64,000 bases of DNA from Phycisphaeraceae bacterium. Its GTDB lineage: Bacteria > Planctomycetota > Phycisphaerae > Phycisphaerales > SM1A02. The translations under genes were made by a program, and so were the position numbers. The stretch spans positions 186,001-250,000 of the forward strand of contig JAHBWZ010000002.1 of assembly GCA_019636755.1 (NCBI GenBank). Reading direction: 5' to 3'. How positions within the stretch are numbered: position 1 is the stretch's first letter; every line of letters starts with the position of its first letter. Below, one piece after another: positions 54,927-62,875 of the stretch. Below the pieces are notes generated by a model, which made no database searches, was not told the origin of the DNA, and saw only the letters and a program-made list of their open reading frames with translations.

Positions 54927-55940
54927 TCAGCGCCGCGCGCCCGGCCAGAGCTCATACCTCCATCGCTCGGGAACCGACGGCATCGCTCGCAGCGAGGCCG
55001 CCAGCAGCGGCAGCGTCGCCCGGTCGTCCTTGTCCGCCGCCGCCGCGAGGATCGGATGCTCCAGCAGTGCCGCCGCCTCCGCGCCGAGTCGACGCAGTTC
55101 CGTGTGATACTCGAGCAGGGCGGCGCGGTGTCGCTCGAATGCCGCCGGGTCATATCCGCCGACCACGCTGACTCTGTCACACCACGCACGCCGGACCGCG
55201 ATGGCGCTTTCGCGGACAAGCCGGCGCGCCTCGATGGCGTCGATCAGCGCCGAGTGGAGCAACGGGACCGAGGCGGCGGCGGCGTCATCATCGTCCGGGT
55301 CGCACATCCGACCGTCCACCGACAGGACCCGCCGCTCGTCACGTTCATGGAAGAATCCTGCCTCCTCCAGCGCCCCCATGTGATGCCGCGCCCAGGTCCG
55401 GCCGATCACGTCGCCAAGGTCGATCGAGACGTCTGCCATGAGCGCTCGAAGCGATTCGTGCTCCTCACGAAGCATCGCGTGGAGCGGTGTAGGGATTCGC
55501 GGCCATGATCGCGCCCGGCGACGCCAGGCTCTGTCCGGCATAGACCGCCAGCGCCCGCCCCATCTGCTCCCTGTCCACCTGCATGGCTGCCAGGGCGAGT
55601 GCGGCGCGCTCCTCCTCCGCAATGAACACGCTGAACTCGCCGAGCGTCTCGCCCTGAAGTCGCCGATACGATGCAAGTGCGTTGAAGCGGATGTCCTCCG
55701 GATCACAGTCGCATGGACCGGGCGATGAGGGAGGTGCGCACACCGGCGCCCGGTACAGGCAGCGGATGGGCACTGAATACTCCGTCTCCTGTTTCCACGC
55801 CGGCCCACCCGTCCGTGCCGTCTGCCCGGGTTCGTCGCCATGGACGGTTGAGCCTTGCATGAACGGGGAAGGCGCGGCGCATAGGCAACCGCACCCATCA
55901 GCACAATGCCTCGGACGCCGAGGTGTCTGGCCCGCAGCAT
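54927..55940 (-). pseudogene. Decayed third copy of the Cys-rich/large secreted protein module
   Basis: Read leftwards from ATG 55940, the start matches the small Cys-rich gene at 57640-58098 (MLRARHLGVRGIVLMGAVA). A frameshift near 55885 follows. The frame then continues as SPFMQGSTVHGDEPGQTA, loses the middle of the small protein, rejoins its end (PIRCLYRAP), and runs straight into the middle of the large protein (RFNALASYRRLQGETLGEFS). Near 55480 a larger deletion with frame change joins to the large protein's C-terminal third (LREEHESLRALM to the stop at 54927). Both genes are therefore deleted and fused. The 54927-55480 piece has an open frame but no start of its own. Confidence 0.7.
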
Positions 55941-56034
55941 GACGATACTTCCGCTCGGAACGGTGTCCGGCATGTGGTCCGGTCCGGCCGGCGGACACCC
56001 GATCCGACCCAACCGGCCCCTGCACGGTGAATTT
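55817..56034. repeat. Leader repeat, copy next to the decayed module
   Basis: Nearly identical (about 93-95 percent by eye) to 57973-58190. It covers the leader and first codons of the small Cys-rich gene. It shows that the decayed module and the second module arose by recent duplication. Confidence 0.8.
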
Positions 56035-56052
56035 ACCCCCCCCGTCTGTCAA
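56030..56052 (-). promoter_or_regulatory. Degraded promoter of the decayed module
   Basis: TTGACA is retained at 56047-56052 (minus strand). The G tract has only 8 Gs, and the nearest AT-rich hexamer (TAAATT) lies 11 bp away, too close for a functional sigma70-type promoter. Confidence 0.4.
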
Positions 56053-56163
56053 CCATGCTCCGCAGAGGTCCATCACACGGGGCACGGACAGGCGGGAGCA
56101 ACTGCGTCCGTATCGCGGCAGACCGCACCACGGCTGACCACGCGTGGCCCCCGTTGAAACCAC

Positions 56164-57621
56164 TCACCAGCAGAGCAGGCCCGGCCACAGCGTGTGTCCC
56201 CACCGATCCGGCACCGCGGGCATCGAGCGCAGCGAACCGCTGAGGGCGGGTACACGCTGACGATCCTCAGCCGACATGCGCTCCAGGATCGCCGGTTCCT
56301 CGAGGAGCGTCGCAGCCCGGTTCCCCAGTGAGACGAGTTGCTCATGGTGGGCCATCAGTCGACCCCTGTGGCGTTCCAGTTCCTCGGGGTTGTTCGCTCC
56401 GGTGCGCTCCACCCGCAGACACCAGGCACGCCGATCGGCGATCGCGGCCTCTCGCACGCGCATGCGTTCCTCCAGCACGTCGATGAGTTCATCGAGCAGG
56501 CGTGCAGCGACTCCGTTCTCTGAGTCACCCGGCGGAACGAGTTGCCTCGCGAGCGCCCATGCACGCCGATCCGCGCGCTCTTCGAAGAAACCGGCCGCCT
56601 CCATGGATCCCATGTGCGTGCGCGCCCAGGCGCGCCCGATCGCATCTGCAAGGTCCTCTCCGCAACCGCTCAGAAAGGCTCGCAATGCACGCTCTTCCTC
56701 GCCCAGCATGTCATGCAGTGGATCCAGCCATGACTGCCTGGCACGCAGACGTTCCGCCATGGCGTCCCGGCACCGCGCCTCGTCGTATCTCACACCGCAC
56801 CACGACTGCTGCGCGGCCGAATGCACCAACTCCTGCCAGAAAGCGGTGCGCAGTGCCTGGGTGGCACGATCGCACGCAGCTCTTGAAGTCCTCCCGATCC
56901 TGTCAAGCAGTCCAATGATGGCCTCACGCTCCATGGAGATGCCATGGCTCAGATGGGGCGACTCATGGGCGACCGCCGCGAACAGGACGCCGAGACCGGC
57001 CATCGGTCTGCCCGCTTCGGTCACGATGGCACTGGCCAGTTGCTCCCGATCAACCTGCATCGCCGCCACATCGAGAGCGTCCCGCTGCTCCGGAGCGAGG
57101 AACACCGCAAACTCTGCGATGGCTCCCGTCTGGATGCGGCGGAACCGCATCAGCGCATCCAGACGGATTCCCGCATGCAGGCGTGCTGCGGCTCGGACCT
57201 CGGGCGTGCTGACCGCCGTGACGTCTCCACCTCTCCAGGCGTCGGAGATGGTCTGCCCCCAGCGGGCCTCCCATGCCCGGGCACGTCGATCCGCATCTGC
57301 CAGGACTCCCGCGGCCTGGGAGGCATACCGGGGGAGAATCACATCCTCCAGCAGCGACACCTGAGCATCACTCAGCACGACGCAGACCCGCACGATGCCG
57401 TCGATGGCCTCCGCGGGGAGCGGTCGCGGCACGACCAGGGCCGTGGAGCCGAGGGTGGCGCTGCAGATCAGCAGCACCGGGACGAGATACGCAGCCTGCC
57501 ACCAGCGGAACTGTTTCGAACACCTGACCGAAGCAGGATCCCCGGGATGCGATCGCTCCGGGCAGACCGTCCCGCGGCGGATGTGCCCCTGTGACTGAGT
57601 CATGGATCCGACCGCGCCCAT
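56164..57621 (-). CDS. Large helical secreted protein, module 2
   Basis: 485 residues, unknown family. A hydrophobic segment (AAYLVPVLLICSATLGSTAL, about residues 43-65) acts as export signal or anchor after a 40-residue polar head. The rest is helical and rich in Arg, Ala, Glu and Trp. It is paralogous to the protein at 59313-60752 and to the decayed copy at 54927-55940. Shared landmarks are FAVFLAPEQRDALDVAAMQV, DAIGRAWARTHMGSMEAAGF followed by FEERADRR, VREAAIADRRAW, and a PAVPDRWGHTLWPGLL end. It follows its Cys-rich partner by 18 nt, so the two are co-expressed. The start at 57621 is likely; ATG 57603 is an alternative. Confidence 0.7.
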   Translation of the reverse strand: MGAVGSMTQSQGHIRRGTVCPERSHPGDPASVRCSKQFRWWQAAYLVPVLLICSATLGSTALVVPRPLPAEAIDGIVRVCVVLSDAQVSLLEDVILPRYASQAAGVLADADRRARAWEARWGQTISDAWRGGDVTAVSTPEVRAAARLHAGIRLDALMRFRRIQTGAIAEFAVFLAPEQRDALDVAAMQVDREQLASAIVTEAGRPMAGLGVLFAAVAHESPHLSHGISMEREAIIGLLDRIGRTSRAACDRATQALRTAFWQELVHSAAQQSWCGVRYDEARCRDAMAERLRARQSWLDPLHDMLGEEERALRAFLSGCGEDLADAIGRAWARTHMGSMEAAGFFEERADRRAWALARQLVPPGDSENGVAARLLDELIDVLEERMRVREAAIADRRAWCLRVERTGANNPEELERHRGRLMAHHEQLVSLGNRAATLLEEPAILERMSAEDRQRVPALSGSLRSMPAVPDRWGHTLWPGLLCW

Positions 57622-57639
57622 ACGTCACCGTGTATGCCT

Positions 57640-58098
57640 TCAAGGGCAGCCGGGGGCGGGCGGATTCGCGCAGCCACTGCCACAATACAACGTCTCTGTC
57701 AGCAGAAAGTTGATGGCACACGGCTGCGGCGCGCCCGGGCCCGCGCACCTGGGCGGATGGTACATGCAGCGGATCGGCTCTTCGCACGCCGTATCCAGCC
57801 TCCACGCCGGTCCGGCCTGCCATGGTGACTGCATCAGTTTGACGGTTGCGAACGGTTGCAGCGCGGCAGGAGTGCCGTAGCACCACGTCCCATCACATCT
57901 GACCCGGATGTTGTTTCCGCCCGGATCGGTGACGGCATCACAGCAGTTCTCGAGGAACTCCCAGGAGATGCACGCCGTCTGCCCGGGTCCGTCGCCATGG
58001 ACGGTTGAGCCCTGCATGAACGGGGAAGGCGCGGCGCACATCGCAATCGCACCCGTCAGCACAATGCCTCTGACGCCGAGGTGTCTGACCCGCAGCAT
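57640..58098 (-). CDS. Small cysteine-rich secreted protein, module 2
   Basis: 152 residues with an excellent ribosome site (GGAGGT, 7 nt). A signal peptide (VRGIVLTGAIAMCAAPSPF) precedes a mature part with many cysteines spaced C-X9-CC, C-X4-C, C-X5-C-X6-C, a late C-X3-C and a terminal C. The pattern is conserved in the homologue at 60749-61210, which argues for disulfide bonds and export. Conserved text includes PFATVKLMQSPW and AGPAWRLDTACEEPIRC. I do not recognise the family. It is always followed by the large helical protein, so they probably act together. Confidence 0.7.
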   Translation of the reverse strand: MLRVRHLGVRGIVLTGAIAMCAAPSPFMQGSTVHGDGPGQTACISWEFLENCCDAVTDPGGNNIRVRCDGTWCYGTPAALQPFATVKLMQSPWQAGPAWRLDTACEEPIRCMYHPPRCAGPGAPQPCAINFLLTETLYCGSGCANPPAPGCP

Positions 58099-58190
58099 GA
58101 CGATACCTCCGCTCGGAACGGTGTCCGGCATGTGGTCCGGTCCGGCCAGCGGACACCTGATCCGACCCACCGGCCCCTGCACGGTGAGTC
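57973..58190. repeat. Leader repeat, copy at module 2
   Basis: Partner of 55817-56034; see that entry. The few differences include a one-base deletion in the other copy that frameshifts its signal peptide. Confidence 0.8.
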
Positions 58191-58214
58191 TACTCCCCCC
58201 CCCCCAAGTGTCAA
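58187..58214 (-). promoter_or_regulatory. Promoter of module 2 with an 11-G spacer
   Basis: On the minus strand: -35 TTGACA (58214-58209), a 16-bp spacer of CTT, eleven Gs and AG, then -10 TAGACT (58192-58187). A leader of about 80 nt precedes the small gene. A homopolymer between the -35 and -10 boxes is the known architecture of slippage-driven phase-variable promoters. Confidence 0.6.
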
Positions 58215-59207
58215 CCGCCACCGTGCGGAGATCGCCGCATCTGCCGAGAAACCGCGGCGGGGCCGTCCTTCCTCAGTCGTTCACCAGGTGCCACCGCACG
58301 AGCGCGTCGGCAAGCGACGCGGGCGTCGCGCCGAACTCGCGTCGCAGCGCTTCCTCCCACGGCATTCCGTGCTTGATCGCGCGGATCCATGCAATGAAGG
58401 CATCCGGCCGCTCGCGCGCCATGAGTTCGACCAGCAGGTATCCGATCGAGTAGCCGATACCTTCCTCGCCCGGCCATGAGCCGTCGCCGTAGTACCAGCC
58501 CAGCATCTCCAGCGGATGGCCGCCGCTTCGGATCCACGCCACGCCCTGCCGTCGCCGGTCCCGGATGGCCGCATTCTCCGGCATGAGCCGTGCGACCATG
58601 CGATCCGCGAATCCCTCGTTCGCCCACGTCGGCAGTCGCACCGGCGAGATGAACCGGTGCATGAAGGCGTGCGTGGTCTCGTGGACCAGCAGCGCCGCGA
58701 AGATGTCGTCACGCGGCGGCACGCAGAAGATGACGTAGCTCTGCGGCCCCATCGGGAAGAACATGCCGTCGACCCAGCGGGGCGCCATGTGGCGGAAGGA
58801 CTGGGCGAGCATCAGCCGGAACCGGTCACGCTCGTCGGTCACGATGATGACCGCCTTCCCCCAGAAGATCCCCGGACGGACCGGGATCTCGAACTCGTGG
58901 CTCAGCATGCGGTACATGCGATCGAGATCGCGCACCCATCGCTCCTGCCGGGCGCGCGGCTGCTCGCTGTAGAAGAGGAAGTGATCGGTCTCGATCGGGC
59001 GGAGCACCATGCCCGCGCGCTCCAGGATCCGGTCCGCCTCTGCACGGACGGTGTCCACCGCGTCGGCGCGCTCACGCTCGGAGAGGAGCGGCCACGGGGT
59101 TGCCGTCCACGGCCCGGCCTCGGGTGAGACCGTCCGCAGGCGCTGGCGCTCCGCCTCCGCCTCCAGCGCCTCGCGGCGCGCCCGCTCCTGCGCCACCGCG
59201 TCCCGCG
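58195..59207. repeat. 1-kb direct repeat, copy A
   Basis: Matches 61318-62313. The two ends (about 180-200 bp each) are essentially identical. It spans the G-tract promoter element and the 3' two-thirds of the metalloprotease-like gene. The right breakpoint cuts that gene's coding sequence. Confidence 0.85.
58273..59196 (-). pseudogene. Metalloprotease-like protein, 5'-truncated copy
   Basis: An open frame of 307 codons corresponding to the C-terminal two-thirds of the protein whose 5' part is intact at 62.0-62.9 kb. The zinc-protease (gluzincin) site is complete: LLVHETTHAFMHR (HExxH form HETTH) with the third ligand in WANEGFADRM 25 residues on. The first codon lies at the repeat breakpoint with no signal peptide or ribosome site, so this copy is probably not expressed as an exported enzyme. 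Its uncorrupted sequence shows what the other copy should look like. Confidence 0.65.
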
Positions 59208-59312
59208 TATCCCCGCGACTGCGCTGCCGCGCGGGGAGTCTACCCCGCGTTCGTGCAGATCAGCGTGACAGGCTCAGTGACCGGGACGCAGCGCCGCAGA
59301 CCTGAGCGGCCC

Positions 59313-60752
59313 TTACCTGATGTCCAGCAATCCCGGCCACCATGATGTGTCCGGTATGGCGTCTCCCGGATCTTCCGGAACCGCGGGAAGGTGGCTTTCA
59401 GAGACCGCGCGGAGCGCTGCCCGAAGGGGCGCGTCCAGCATCTCACACGCCACAGCGCTTCCGATCGCGTCGGCAAGCGCCCGCCCGGCCTCCGCCATCC
59501 GGACGCACAGTTCGCGCAAACTCGCGACATGCGCTTCGTACTCGTCAGGGAAGTACTGCGAATGCTCCTCGAATGCCCGCGTCCATCGGCGCCGCTCCTG
59601 GATCGCCGTCGCGCGAATCTGCTGCCTCGCCTCGACTGCCCCGGCAAGCTCCTGGAGCGAGTGCGTGCAGGATGACTCGTCCTCGTCGCGCCCGGCAGAT
59701 CCGTGCGCCCGGTCGCTCTCACCGATCATCGCCATGATCCGACGCTCGGCCGCGTCATCCAGGAACCCGGCGGCCCAGAGCGCATGATGCCGGTGCATGT
59801 TCCAGACGCGGCGCAGCCGATCCTGTTCCACACTCGGAAGGCGTTCGCAGATTGCCAGGACGACAGCCTCCTCGAGATCCAGCGCTTCCCAGAGCAGCAG
59901 CACGTACTGGCGTCGGCGTTCCAGCCGTGCATGGTCCAGTCGCTGACACGCCTCGACGTCACGGGCATGTCTGCATGCGGCCCATGCCGCGGCGAACTCC
60001 AGCCCGCGTCGTCCGTGGGAACGATACCGCGCAAGCGCGGTCGCTATCACTGATCCTGCCTTCGCGTGCAATTCGTTGAGTTGATCGTGAATCACGAGTC
60101 GGTTGTTCCGAAGCGCGTCCGACAGTTCCGGACAGGACGCGGCAGCAGCACGCAACACGGCACCAGGCGACGGCGCCGTGCGTTTGACGGCGAGCCCGAT
60201 CCGGGCCGACTGCTGGGCTCGTTCAACCTCACGGACCGCGATCTCAAGCTCTGCGCGCTGGTCCGGCGTCAGGAAGACGGAGAATTCATTGAGCAGAACC
60301 TCCCGGAGAATCCGGATAGGCACGTCGTCGCTATCTTCCTCAATGCGCGACTCCTGGCGCGCCGCCTGAATCATCCAGCCTTCGCCCCAGCGACCGCTGT
60401 CAACCGCCTCCTGCATCCGGGAGCCCCATCGATTCTCCCACGCGATCGCCTCCCGACGTAACCGCGCCTCCAGACCATCAAGACGCGCCCGCAGCCGGTC
60501 CTCGAAGGTCGTTCGGAGCAGGCTCACCTGCTCGTCGCTCAGATGAACCAGCAACTCCACGATGTCGCAGGCCATTCGCGCATCAAGCGGCGGATTCCAG
60601 CCGACCGCAACACCCGTGGTCTGTCCATCGGCCTCCGTCACCGGCACGCACAGTGCGCATGCGACAACGGCTGCAAGGAGCGCCATGGTCCTCCGATGCA
60701 TCTGCGCCCGTCCGCGGATGTGCGCAGTCGGGGGCCGGATCACCGGAGTCAT
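59313..60752 (-). CDS. Large helical secreted protein, module 3
   Basis: 479 residues. The start at 60752 overlaps the stop of the Cys-rich gene (ATGA), proving coupling. A signal peptide (MALLAAVVACALCVPVTEAD) is preceded by a 30-residue polar head. The mature part is helical and paralogous to 56164-57621. Shared landmarks: FSVFLTPDQRAELEIAVREV, HALWAAGFLDDAAERRIM, IRATAIQERRRWTRAF and a C-terminal PDTSWWPGLLD. Divergence from module 2 is much greater than between modules 1 and 2, so this is an older duplicate. The function is unknown. Confidence 0.7.
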   Translation of the reverse strand: MTPVIRPPTAHIRGRAQMHRRTMALLAAVVACALCVPVTEADGQTTGVAVGWNPPLDARMACDIVELLVHLSDEQVSLLRTTFEDRLRARLDGLEARLRREAIAWENRWGSRMQEAVDSGRWGEGWMIQAARQESRIEEDSDDVPIRILREVLLNEFSVFLTPDQRAELEIAVREVERAQQSARIGLAVKRTAPSPGAVLRAAAASCPELSDALRNNRLVIHDQLNELHAKAGSVIATALARYRSHGRRGLEFAAAWAACRHARDVEACQRLDHARLERRRQYVLLLWEALDLEEAVVLAICERLPSVEQDRLRRVWNMHRHHALWAAGFLDDAAERRIMAMIGESDRAHGSAGRDEDESSCTHSLQELAGAVEARQQIRATAIQERRRWTRAFEEHSQYFPDEYEAHVASLRELCVRMAEAGRALADAIGSAVACEMLDAPLRAALRAVSESHLPAVPEDPGDAIPDTSWWPGLLDIR

Positions 60753-61210
60753 GCCGGTCCTCCCGGGCAGGAAGGCCAATCAGGCGGAGGCGGCTCTGCA
60801 CATCCCGTCCCGCAGTATCTCCAGGTGTACTCTGTGTCAGAGTGCGTGCATGGCCCCGGATCCGTCGGACCGCCGCAGTCAACCTTCCAGAACCGGCAGC
60901 GGATCGTCACTTCTTCGCAGGGGGTATGCAGATCCCATGCAGGCCCGCTTCCCCATGCCGACTGAATGTACTTCGTCGTCGCGAACGGCTGCGGTGGCGC
61001 GAGTTGCGCCATACATTTGACGCCATTGCACCAGACCCACAGCCCTCCGGTGCAGCAACCCTCCAGGAAATCCCATGTGACACACACCGTCTGTCCCGGT
61101 CCGTCCCACGGGGCCGCCGCATGCGGCATGGCGGACCCGAGGACAGTGCCGCAGGCGACGACCGCGAGCCCGGCCAGGCCTCTGACTGAAACACGACTCA
61201 CCTGGAACAT
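60749..61210 (-). CDS. Small cysteine-rich secreted protein, module 3
   Basis: 153 residues; GGAGGT lies 7 nt before ATG 61210. Signal peptide VRGLAGLAVVACGTVLGSAM, then a mature domain with the same cysteine framework as 57640-58098. Aligned segments are DGPGQTVCVTWDFLEGCC (against DGPGQTACISWEFLENCC), PFATTKYIQSAWGSGPAWDL, PCEEVTIRC and YCGTGCAEPP. A cysteine-stabilised domain secreted with its large partner is likely. No family is recognised. Confidence 0.7.
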   Translation of the reverse strand: MFQVSRVSVRGLAGLAVVACGTVLGSAMPHAAAPWDGPGQTVCVTWDFLEGCCTGGLWVWCNGVKCMAQLAPPQPFATTKYIQSAWGSGPAWDLHTPCEEVTIRCRFWKVDCGGPTDPGPCTHSDTEYTWRYCGTGCAEPPPPDWPSCPGGPA

Positions 61211-61338: not shown

Positions 61339-62313
61339 CCGCCACCGTGCGGAGATCGCCGCATCTGCCGAGAAACCGCGGCGGGGCCGTCCTTCCTCAG
61401 TCGTTCACCAGGTGCCACCGCACGAGCGCGTCGGCAAGCGACGCGGGCGTCGCGCCGAACTCGCGTCGCAGCGCTTCCTCCCACGGCATTCCGTGCTTGA
61501 TCGCGCGGATCCATAACACGTATCCGGCCGCCGCGCGCCATGAGCTCGACCAGCAGGTAATCCGATCGAGGAAGCGATACCTTCCTCGCCCGGCCATGAG
61601 CCGTCGCCGTAGTACCAGCCCAGCATCTCCAGCGGATGGGCCGCCGCCAACCATCGCCACGCCCTGCCGTCGCCGGTCCCGGATGGCCGCATTCTTCCGG
61701 CATGAGCTGCGGCGACCATGCGATCCGCGAATCCCCGTTCGCCCATCGCCGGCAGTCGCACCGGCGATGAACCGGTGCATGAAGGCGTGGTCTCGTGGAC
61801 CAGCAGCGCCGCGAAGATGTCAGTCACGCGGCGGCACGCAGAAGATGACGTAGCTCTGCGGCCTATCGGGAAGAACAGATGCCGTCGACTCCAGCGGGCC
61901 GCCATGTGGCGGAAGACCAGCATCAGCCGGAACCGGTCACGCTCGTCGGTCACGATGATGACCGCCTTCCCCAGAAGATATCCCCGGACGGACCGGGATC
62001 TTCGAACTCGTGGCTCAGCATGCGCAAGACGCAACGAGACGCACCCATCGCCCGCCGGCGGCTGCTCTCCTGCTGTAGAAGAGGAAGTGATCGCACCTTA
62101 TCGGGCGGAGCACCATGCCCGCGCGCTCCAGGATCCGGTCCGCCTCTGCACGGACGGTGTCCACCGCGTCGGCGCGCTCACGCTCGGAGAGGAGCGGCCA
62201 CGGGGTTGCCGTCCACGGCCCGGCCTCGGGTGAGACCGTCCGCAGGCGCTGGCGCTCCGCCTCCGCCTCCAGCGCCTCGCGGCGCGCCCGCTCCTGCGCC
62301 ACCGTGTCCCGCG
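61318..62313. repeat. 1-kb direct repeat, copy B
   Basis: Matches 58195-59207. Identity is essentially complete at 61330-61513 and 62101-62300. Between about 61514 and 62100 there are some twenty or more short insertions and deletions as well as substitutions relative to copy A. Confidence 0.85.
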
Positions 62314-62875
62314 CCGCATCGATGTGTTCCTGCACGGCCGGGTCCAGGCGATGCGCCCGCCGGAAGGCGGTCTCGGCGGACACGGCCGCCCGCGGCTGAT
62401 CCAGCGAGAGCCGCAGGAGTCGATGCCCGAGCGCGACCCACGCCTGGGCGGAGTCGGCATCCATGAGCCGCCGGCCCAGCGCCCAGACATCCTCGTGGTG
62501 AATCTCCGCCCATCGATAGGTGCCGAAGGCGCCGGTCAGACCTTCCTCATCCCAGCCCTCCAGCGCGCCGGAGATCAGCCGAAGCCCCTCCAGCAGCCGG
62601 AAACTCACGCGGGCCGGTGGCCCCGGTCGTTCCACGGGCGCGGGAGGCGCCGGGGGCGAGTCCGTCCGCTCGTCGCCCTCCTGGGGCAGCGCGACCTGCG
62701 CCACGCCGTCGTCCCCGAAGGCGGCCGGCATCGCCCATCGCAACGGCGGATCCACCCCGGCGGGCCCGCCCGGGGGCCCAGAATCAGCGCGGACGGCCGT
62801 CGCACCGACGGCGAGTGACGGGAGGAGGAGCGCTGCCGTTCTGGCAGCGACGCGGCGCATCTGACGGATCGACAC
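61397..62875 (-). pseudogene. Metalloprotease-like secreted protein, indel-riddled copy
   Basis: The 5' part (62875 to about 62100) is open and clean. It has a signal peptide (RTAALLLPSLAVGATAVRAD), a Pro-rich segment, and a TPR-like helical region (DVWALGRRLMDADSAQAWVA), then an Ala/Arg/Glu coiled coil. From about 62100 to 61514 the frame breaks repeatedly, although the protein sense (LMLVFRHMAARW, AALLVHETTPSC) is still readable in alternating frames. Comparison with 58273-59196 shows that an intact gene would encode an exported zinc metalloprotease of roughly 490 residues, ending at 61397. Either this is a real pseudogene or the sequence is wrong in this interval. Confidence 0.7.

Follow-up and report, generated by a model that had tools for sequence, protein, structure and literature searches.

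A run of related gene pairs in a planctomycete genome raises the question of what these genes encode and what the guanine tracts in front of them do. The window considered here is a 64,000-nucleotide (nt) stretch of a Phycisphaeraceae bacterium (GenBank assembly GCA_019636755.1, contig JAHBWZ010000002.1, positions 186,001 to 250,000 of the forward strand), and the pairs, each a small cysteine-rich gene followed by a large gene, lie on its minus strand. An initial annotation of this stretch described the same pair three times in a row. Two intact pairs in the same orientation, C and B, bear this out, but the third copy, A, is a remnant with deletions and a frameshift, a partial copy of an HETTH-peptidase-like gene separates C from B, so that they are not immediately adjacent, and a fourth pair, D, lies outside the window. 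The strongest clue was overlooked in that annotation: a poly-G spacer inside promoter-like sites, together with an order-wide link between such sites and export-like genes. Taking sequence and analogy together, we consider it fairly probable that the pairs belong to a phase-variable group of exported modules within the order Phycisphaerales, with promoters resembling that of porA in Neisseria meningitidis. The layout of the pairs, their coding status, the position of the tract, the recurrence of the design across the order, its peak in spacing and its link with export-like genes are established by sequence.

The spacer between the -35-like and -10-like hexamers is a poly-G tract upstream of B, C and A (11, 12 and 8 G, respectively). 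The spacing is near the optimum at B and C (16) and off it at A (11), and the sites are presumed to be working promoters. Upstream of B and C, approximately 190 nt are identical up to the tract, after which tract length differs and the sequences diverge; homology therefore ends at the tract. Upstream of pair D, we read TTGACC, 16 nt and TAAATT, with no G tract. Elsewhere in the host genome, TTGAC followed by 0–8 nt and G8 occurs at 10 distinct places, and the reversed pattern at none.

The design recurs across the order. We scanned 301 same-order genomes, the host included, for the pattern TTGACN{2,8}G8N{0,3}TANNNT and found it at 71 sites in 47 genomes, whereas the reversed pattern occurred in none (0/301). 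A homopolymer of at least 8 between the hexamers is present at A, B and C in the window and at these 71 order sites, and the host genome is the richest, with six sites. All 71 sites were kept in the counts below, and DNA was obtained for every one. Tract length ranged from 8 to 15 and spacing from 10 to 18, but spacing 16 was used at 24 sites compared with 7.6 expected from equal use of the gap choices in the pattern (p = 1.7e-7). Tract length also varies among paralogues (B versus C) and, at homologous loci, from species to species.

These patterns bear on the simplest alternative, in which the pairs are simply exported genes of a lineage-specific family that amplifies and decays, and the G runs are accidents of a GC-rich genome. 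The remnant state of copy A fits such a history, as does the apparent isolation of the family: a large-protein profile found a homologue in 0 of 60 relatives, and no relative in a contig scan of species genomes that may omit very near genomes. Tracts of at least G9 number 41 in the host genome, and the majority have no promoter context. Accidents, however, would not be expected to leave the reversed control at 0/301, to produce a peak in spacing or to single out exported genes, and we regard this explanation as very unlikely.

Sites of this kind are strongly associated with export-like genes. Throughout, export-like refers to a hydropathy heuristic on the N-terminus; this export rule combined a Kyte-Doolittle window with the charge before the core and took open reading frames (ORFs) starting within 150 nt of the site, and the small cysteine-rich class extended up to 260 amino acids (aa). 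An export-like ORF lay behind 55 of the 71 poly-G sites and behind 2 of 30 ordinary promoter-like sites (Fisher p = 1.6e-11), and a small cysteine-rich export-like ORF behind 26 of 71 and 0 of 30, respectively (Fisher p = 1.9e-5); these controls were TTGACA-N16-TANNNT sites of the order without G8, so that they had spacing 16 and TTGACA only, whereas the test sites had TTGACN and spacings of 10–18, and some controls may not be real promoters. The 30-site control supersedes an earlier one of only four sites (one export-like, one cysteine-rich). Random positions in the same loci, target genes included, gave 444 export-like and 100 small cysteine-rich ORFs among 3952. The rule was fixed after 30 of the 71 sites and most host-genome sites had been inspected, and was later applied unchanged; sites L288–L323 (n = 36), all unseen at that point except L289, gave 29 export-like and 15 small cysteine-rich ORFs under the same rule. 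At least one clear case, L272, escaped the rule.

Behind many of these sites lies the same two-gene arrangement as in the window. Of the 26 sites with a small gene, 23, B and C among them, have directly behind it a second gene whose N-terminus is hydrophobic; a second gene was defined as at least 150 aa, starting −60 to +130 nt from the small-gene stop, with a slightly wider hydropathy window. At random, the rates were 302 of 2955 in the same loci and, in control loci, 184 of 3000. This two-gene arrangement is therefore a recurring design rather than a local oddity. In another genus (genome G015), a G12 tract at spacing 17 is followed by a 121-aa cysteine-rich gene and, 4 nt on, by a 419-aa gene that has a hydrophobic N-terminus and fails the export rule; the 419-aa protein has no detectable homology to the window large protein (E = 0.27). 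In an all-against-all comparison, modules of different genomes formed separate protein families, and those with both members related across genomes were L274/L290/L307, L310/L320 and L306/L319. We therefore see one design, not one protein family. The initial annotation had noted that small and large homologues routinely found apart would speak against a module. We took the partner protein of one homologous pair family from other genera as the query against 400 genomes of the order and found it at seven places in 5 of them; a small cysteine-rich gene lay beside it at all seven, with two tandem partners in genome G260 sharing one, an outcome that does not refute the module. Three distinct small genes of that pair family have tracts of G10, G13 and G8.

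Two other gene types were seen behind poly-G promoters. A family of ~380-aa proteins occurs at nine sites (L275, L285, L291, L293, L295, L311, L317, L318 and L322); six of the nine pass the export rule, and L275 had no Pfam match. A MauE-like membrane protein is the first gene in the L299 and L301 operons, followed by a small cysteine-rich gene, with relatives at L298 and L303. The L301 gene, the only one run against Pfam, matched PF07291 (E = 3.4e-14), and its place before a small cysteine-rich gene fits a need for disulfide formation.

Within the window, the paralogues indicate how the proteins themselves are constrained. Eleven cysteines are invariant in the small proteins of three paralogues, which upholds the cysteine framework first proposed for them; the N-termini of small B and C are signal-like. 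Large-protein length (479, 499 and 485 aa) and the C-terminal WPGL are likewise kept, although large B is only 30% identical to large C. The start/stop overlap via ATGA reported for the genes (60752–60749) is present in pair C and also in pair D, which lies at ~C12:269020-270977, 19 kilobases (kb) beyond the edge of the window and at a distance of 22 kb from C; the genes of pair B are instead separated by 18 nt. In copy A, most of the cysteine region of the small gene is gone, sections of the large gene are missing, and the reading frame is shifted. Pairs D and C are 57% identical in the large protein and 60–64% in the small one. Between them, the nonsynonymous and synonymous divergences (dN and dS) were 0.36 and 0.90 for the large genes and 0.36 and 1.06 for the small genes; both genes are therefore coding and under purifying selection. 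Paralogue comparison and these ratios agree with the proposed tandem amplification with divergence, and we regard the pair as a real, coding two-gene module of predicted exported type, tandemly amplified with divergence. Coordinates are given in Table 1.

Table 1. Gene pairs, remnant, promoter-like sites and neighbouring genes in the window
Feature	Position	Strand	Description
Promoter-like site, pair C	61338-61311	minus	TTGACA-CTT-G12 (61329-61318)-T-TAGACT, spacing 16
Small Cys-rich protein C	61210-60749	minus	153 aa, signal-like N-terminus
Large helical protein C	60752-59313	minus	479 aa, signal-like N-terminus
Promoter-like site, pair B	58214-58187	minus	TTGACA-CTT-G11 (58205-58195)-AG-TAGACT, spacing 16
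Small Cys-rich protein B	58098-57640	minus	152 aa, signal-like N-terminus
Large protein B	57621-56164	minus	485 aa, signal-like N-terminus
Promoter-like site, remnant A	56052-56030	minus	TTGACA-GAC-G8 (56043-56036)-TAAATT, spacing 11
Remnant A	55940-54927	minus	Small-gene start and large-gene parts, large deletions, frameshift
Peptidase-like gene (context, outside pairs)	61398-62875	minus	Ends just upstream of promoter C; frame broken mid-gene
Partial peptidase-like gene copy, HETTH motif (context)	58273-59207	minus	Ends just upstream of promoter B

Neither protein had been assigned to a known family, and the libraries searched gave no match above threshold. In Pfam, the matches of the pair proteins stayed below threshold: small C resembled PKD (E = 0.32), a fragment of A resembled hemerythrin (E = 0.056), and neither large B nor large C had any family even with E allowed up to 1. 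PADLOC was likewise sub-threshold only (LeoA, E = 0.01, large B), NCBIfam had no match to pair C, PHROGs had none to the pair proteins, and the large-protein profile matched no sequence in the PDB. The structure model of large C is all-helical (predicted local distance difference test, pLDDT, 69.9; predicted template modelling score, pTM, 0.60) and had no Foldseek match with E up to 0.001. The small-protein model had a pLDDT of 39 and was left unused.

Further poly-G sites in the host genome precede other small export-like cysteine-rich genes. In family 2 (C1:240800, C1:250510 and C20:109981), the small gene overlaps the large gene, and the two C1 sites read TTGCGT, poly-G and TACNCT, with spacings of 14 and 17. 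At C20:109981 (L076, minus strand), the promoter contains G19-A-C14, probably an assembly palindrome, in place of a simple tract, and its -10 is unclear. Family 3 has one locus at C15:134643 and another on C17, at its right end; a C39-peptidase domain read by eye in its second gene was dropped, as Pfam finds no family there, and DUF1573 fell below the cut-off (15.7 versus 26.1 bits). The small proteins of families 1 and 2 are probably related, judging by their alignment (hhalign E = 8e-4 over 118 columns), whereas the large proteins showed no significant relation (E = 0.098).

Assembly quality could matter for homopolymers, and one alternative explains the poly-G tracts as sequencing errors made where contigs join. 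Poly-G is found at 9 of the 40 contig ends of the host genome, the repeat beside promoter C looks unpolished, and the G19-A-C14 reading of one family 2 promoter points the same way. Errors of this kind, however, would hardly keep both hexamers in register across 71 sites from 47 assemblies and leave the reversed pattern without a hit, and we find an artefact extremely improbable. Assembly does break at poly-G tracts. Among contig ends (L101–L140), at least three poly-G ends are in promoter-like contexts (the C3 end, C11 start and C17 end). In the peptidase-like repeat, the two copies differ by 38 mismatches and 26 gap openings, the majority of them inside 61514–62100 as aligned with 58369–58960, and the flanks, of ~205 nt and ~190 nt, show no difference at all. 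Because the differences cluster mid-repeat between identical flanks, unpolished sequence is likelier than decay for the peptidase-like gene beside promoter C. Errors may also account for frame breaks in repeated copies, such as those in this gene, in the family 2 large genes and perhaps in A.

How the tract might act can be sketched from the porA analogy. Each unit would be an operon behind a sigma-70-type promoter, its first gene encoding a small exported disulfide-rich protein and its second, adjoining or overlapping, a larger exported or membrane-anchored partner. Slipped-strand copying of the G run would alter the -35/-10 distance, and the operon would be on at a spacing of about 16–17 and otherwise off, which would make it a contingency locus. 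G runs of length 8 to 15 are expected to be unstable. By the same analogy, B and C would be on and A off. Paralogues arise by duplication and drift apart, and one breakpoint of homology coincides exactly with the G tract, so that a population would display a changing repertoire of exported proteins. We infer the switching itself by analogy.

The same tract could also be a fixed, non-switching promoter element, whether a regulator site, a G-quadruplex site or a special sigma preference of exported-protein genes. A regulon of this type would likewise produce a link to one class of genes and a preferred spacing of 16, and the strand bias of the host-genome tracts is compatible with it, since TTGAC lies just upstream of 5 of the 41 on the G strand and of none on the C strand. 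The range of tract lengths over the 71 sites, the differences between homologous loci and the expected instability argue in the other direction, and we judge a fixed element unlikely, though worth weighing.

Several observations weigh against phase-variable control of exported genes or set its scope. Sixteen of the 71 sites lacked an ORF passing the export rule, 47 were not at spacing 16, and not all of the 10 TTGAC-G8 places in the host genome precede export-like genes. Pair D and the homologous loci L361, L362 and L363 lack any run of at least 8 G; the tract is therefore not obligatory, and at L361–L363 the pair holds together even without it. Tract lengths were taken from draft assemblies. 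A looser pattern without the -10 was found in 8 of 60 other same-family genomes, yet with 3 reversed-control hits. In a scan of 392 genomes of the phylum, 26 had the pattern; outside the order, these were 20 of 361, with 3 reversed hits, and among the 27 sites there, an export-like ORF lay behind 1 of the 6 that were examined, each with enough downstream sequence. The link with export-like genes has so far been seen inside the order only, in comparison with this small outside sample. A similar pattern occurs in at least 117 stretches of a species-genome collection, with many phyla among the matches listed, so this kind of promoter is not peculiar to the order. Two genomes of the same phylum from other orders (G533 and G540) have four poly-G-spacer sites each.

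As to what the exported pairs do, variable surface or secreted factors are the best-fitting role, which we propose tentatively. This role is favored because unrelated cysteine-rich proteins with coupled partners stand under presumably random control. The pairs might also be bacteriocin-like, with the small cysteine-rich protein as a secreted toxin and the second gene encoding an immunity or anchoring protein. A small disulfide-rich exported product, an adjoining and often membrane-anchored partner, and many unrelated pair families would all suit such a function, which can be compatible with switching. However, the partners (205–410 aa) are long for immunity proteins, toxin and immunity would go off together and leave off-cells exposed, and no known toxin, immunity or dedicated exporter family was found above threshold for the window proteins in the libraries searched. 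We consider a bacteriocin-like role quite unlikely.

On a larger scale, we lean slightly toward an order-wide contingency system, in which unrelated operons for exported proteins, dozens in number and many of the two-gene cysteine-rich type, would switch independently through poly-G-spacer promoters and give each cell its own secretome, with short-read assemblies breaking at the longest tracts and hiding part of the set. Switching of poly-G promoters is best known from host-adapted bacteria. If the system is real, an environmental order of Planctomycetota would also run a randomly varied secretome. The poly-G spacer design would offer a simple sequence rule for locating such genes, and poly-G tracts may partly explain assembly breaks in such genomes. 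Titles and abstract openings of the listed papers, all from the open-licence literature, yielded no account of phase-variable poly-G promoters in planctomycetes or Phycisphaerales.

Comparison with known systems places the module near, and apart from, several of them. Spy and CpxP are helical periplasmic proteins, and the window large proteins resemble them in being helical (by the model of C) and in LSDEQ/LTPDQ stretches seen by eye; unlike these LTxxQ proteins, large B and C match no Pfam family, and no Foldseek match was found at the threshold above. MauE and a disulfide-rich small subunit belong to the methylamine dehydrogenase context, which the L299 and L301 operons recall in having a MauE-like gene and then a small cysteine-rich export-like gene, whereas none was read beside the window pairs, and methylamine dehydrogenase was not searched for. 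For the promoter, PMC5084427 states that repeats can modulate promoters via the spacing of promoter elements. In the porA promoter of N. meningitidis, as described in PMC7864442, poly-G likewise lies between the -10 and -35, and transcription, which needs a spacing near 17, is lost if that spacing is reduced. The present case differs in that many unrelated export-like operons of one order share the design and that the PorA protein is unrelated. The tprL promoter of Treponema pallidum (PMC7864442) also has a poly-G tract of variable length that affects activity; the tprL transcript, however, starts 4 nt past the tract, whereas here a -10-like TANNNT lies 0–3 nt past it.

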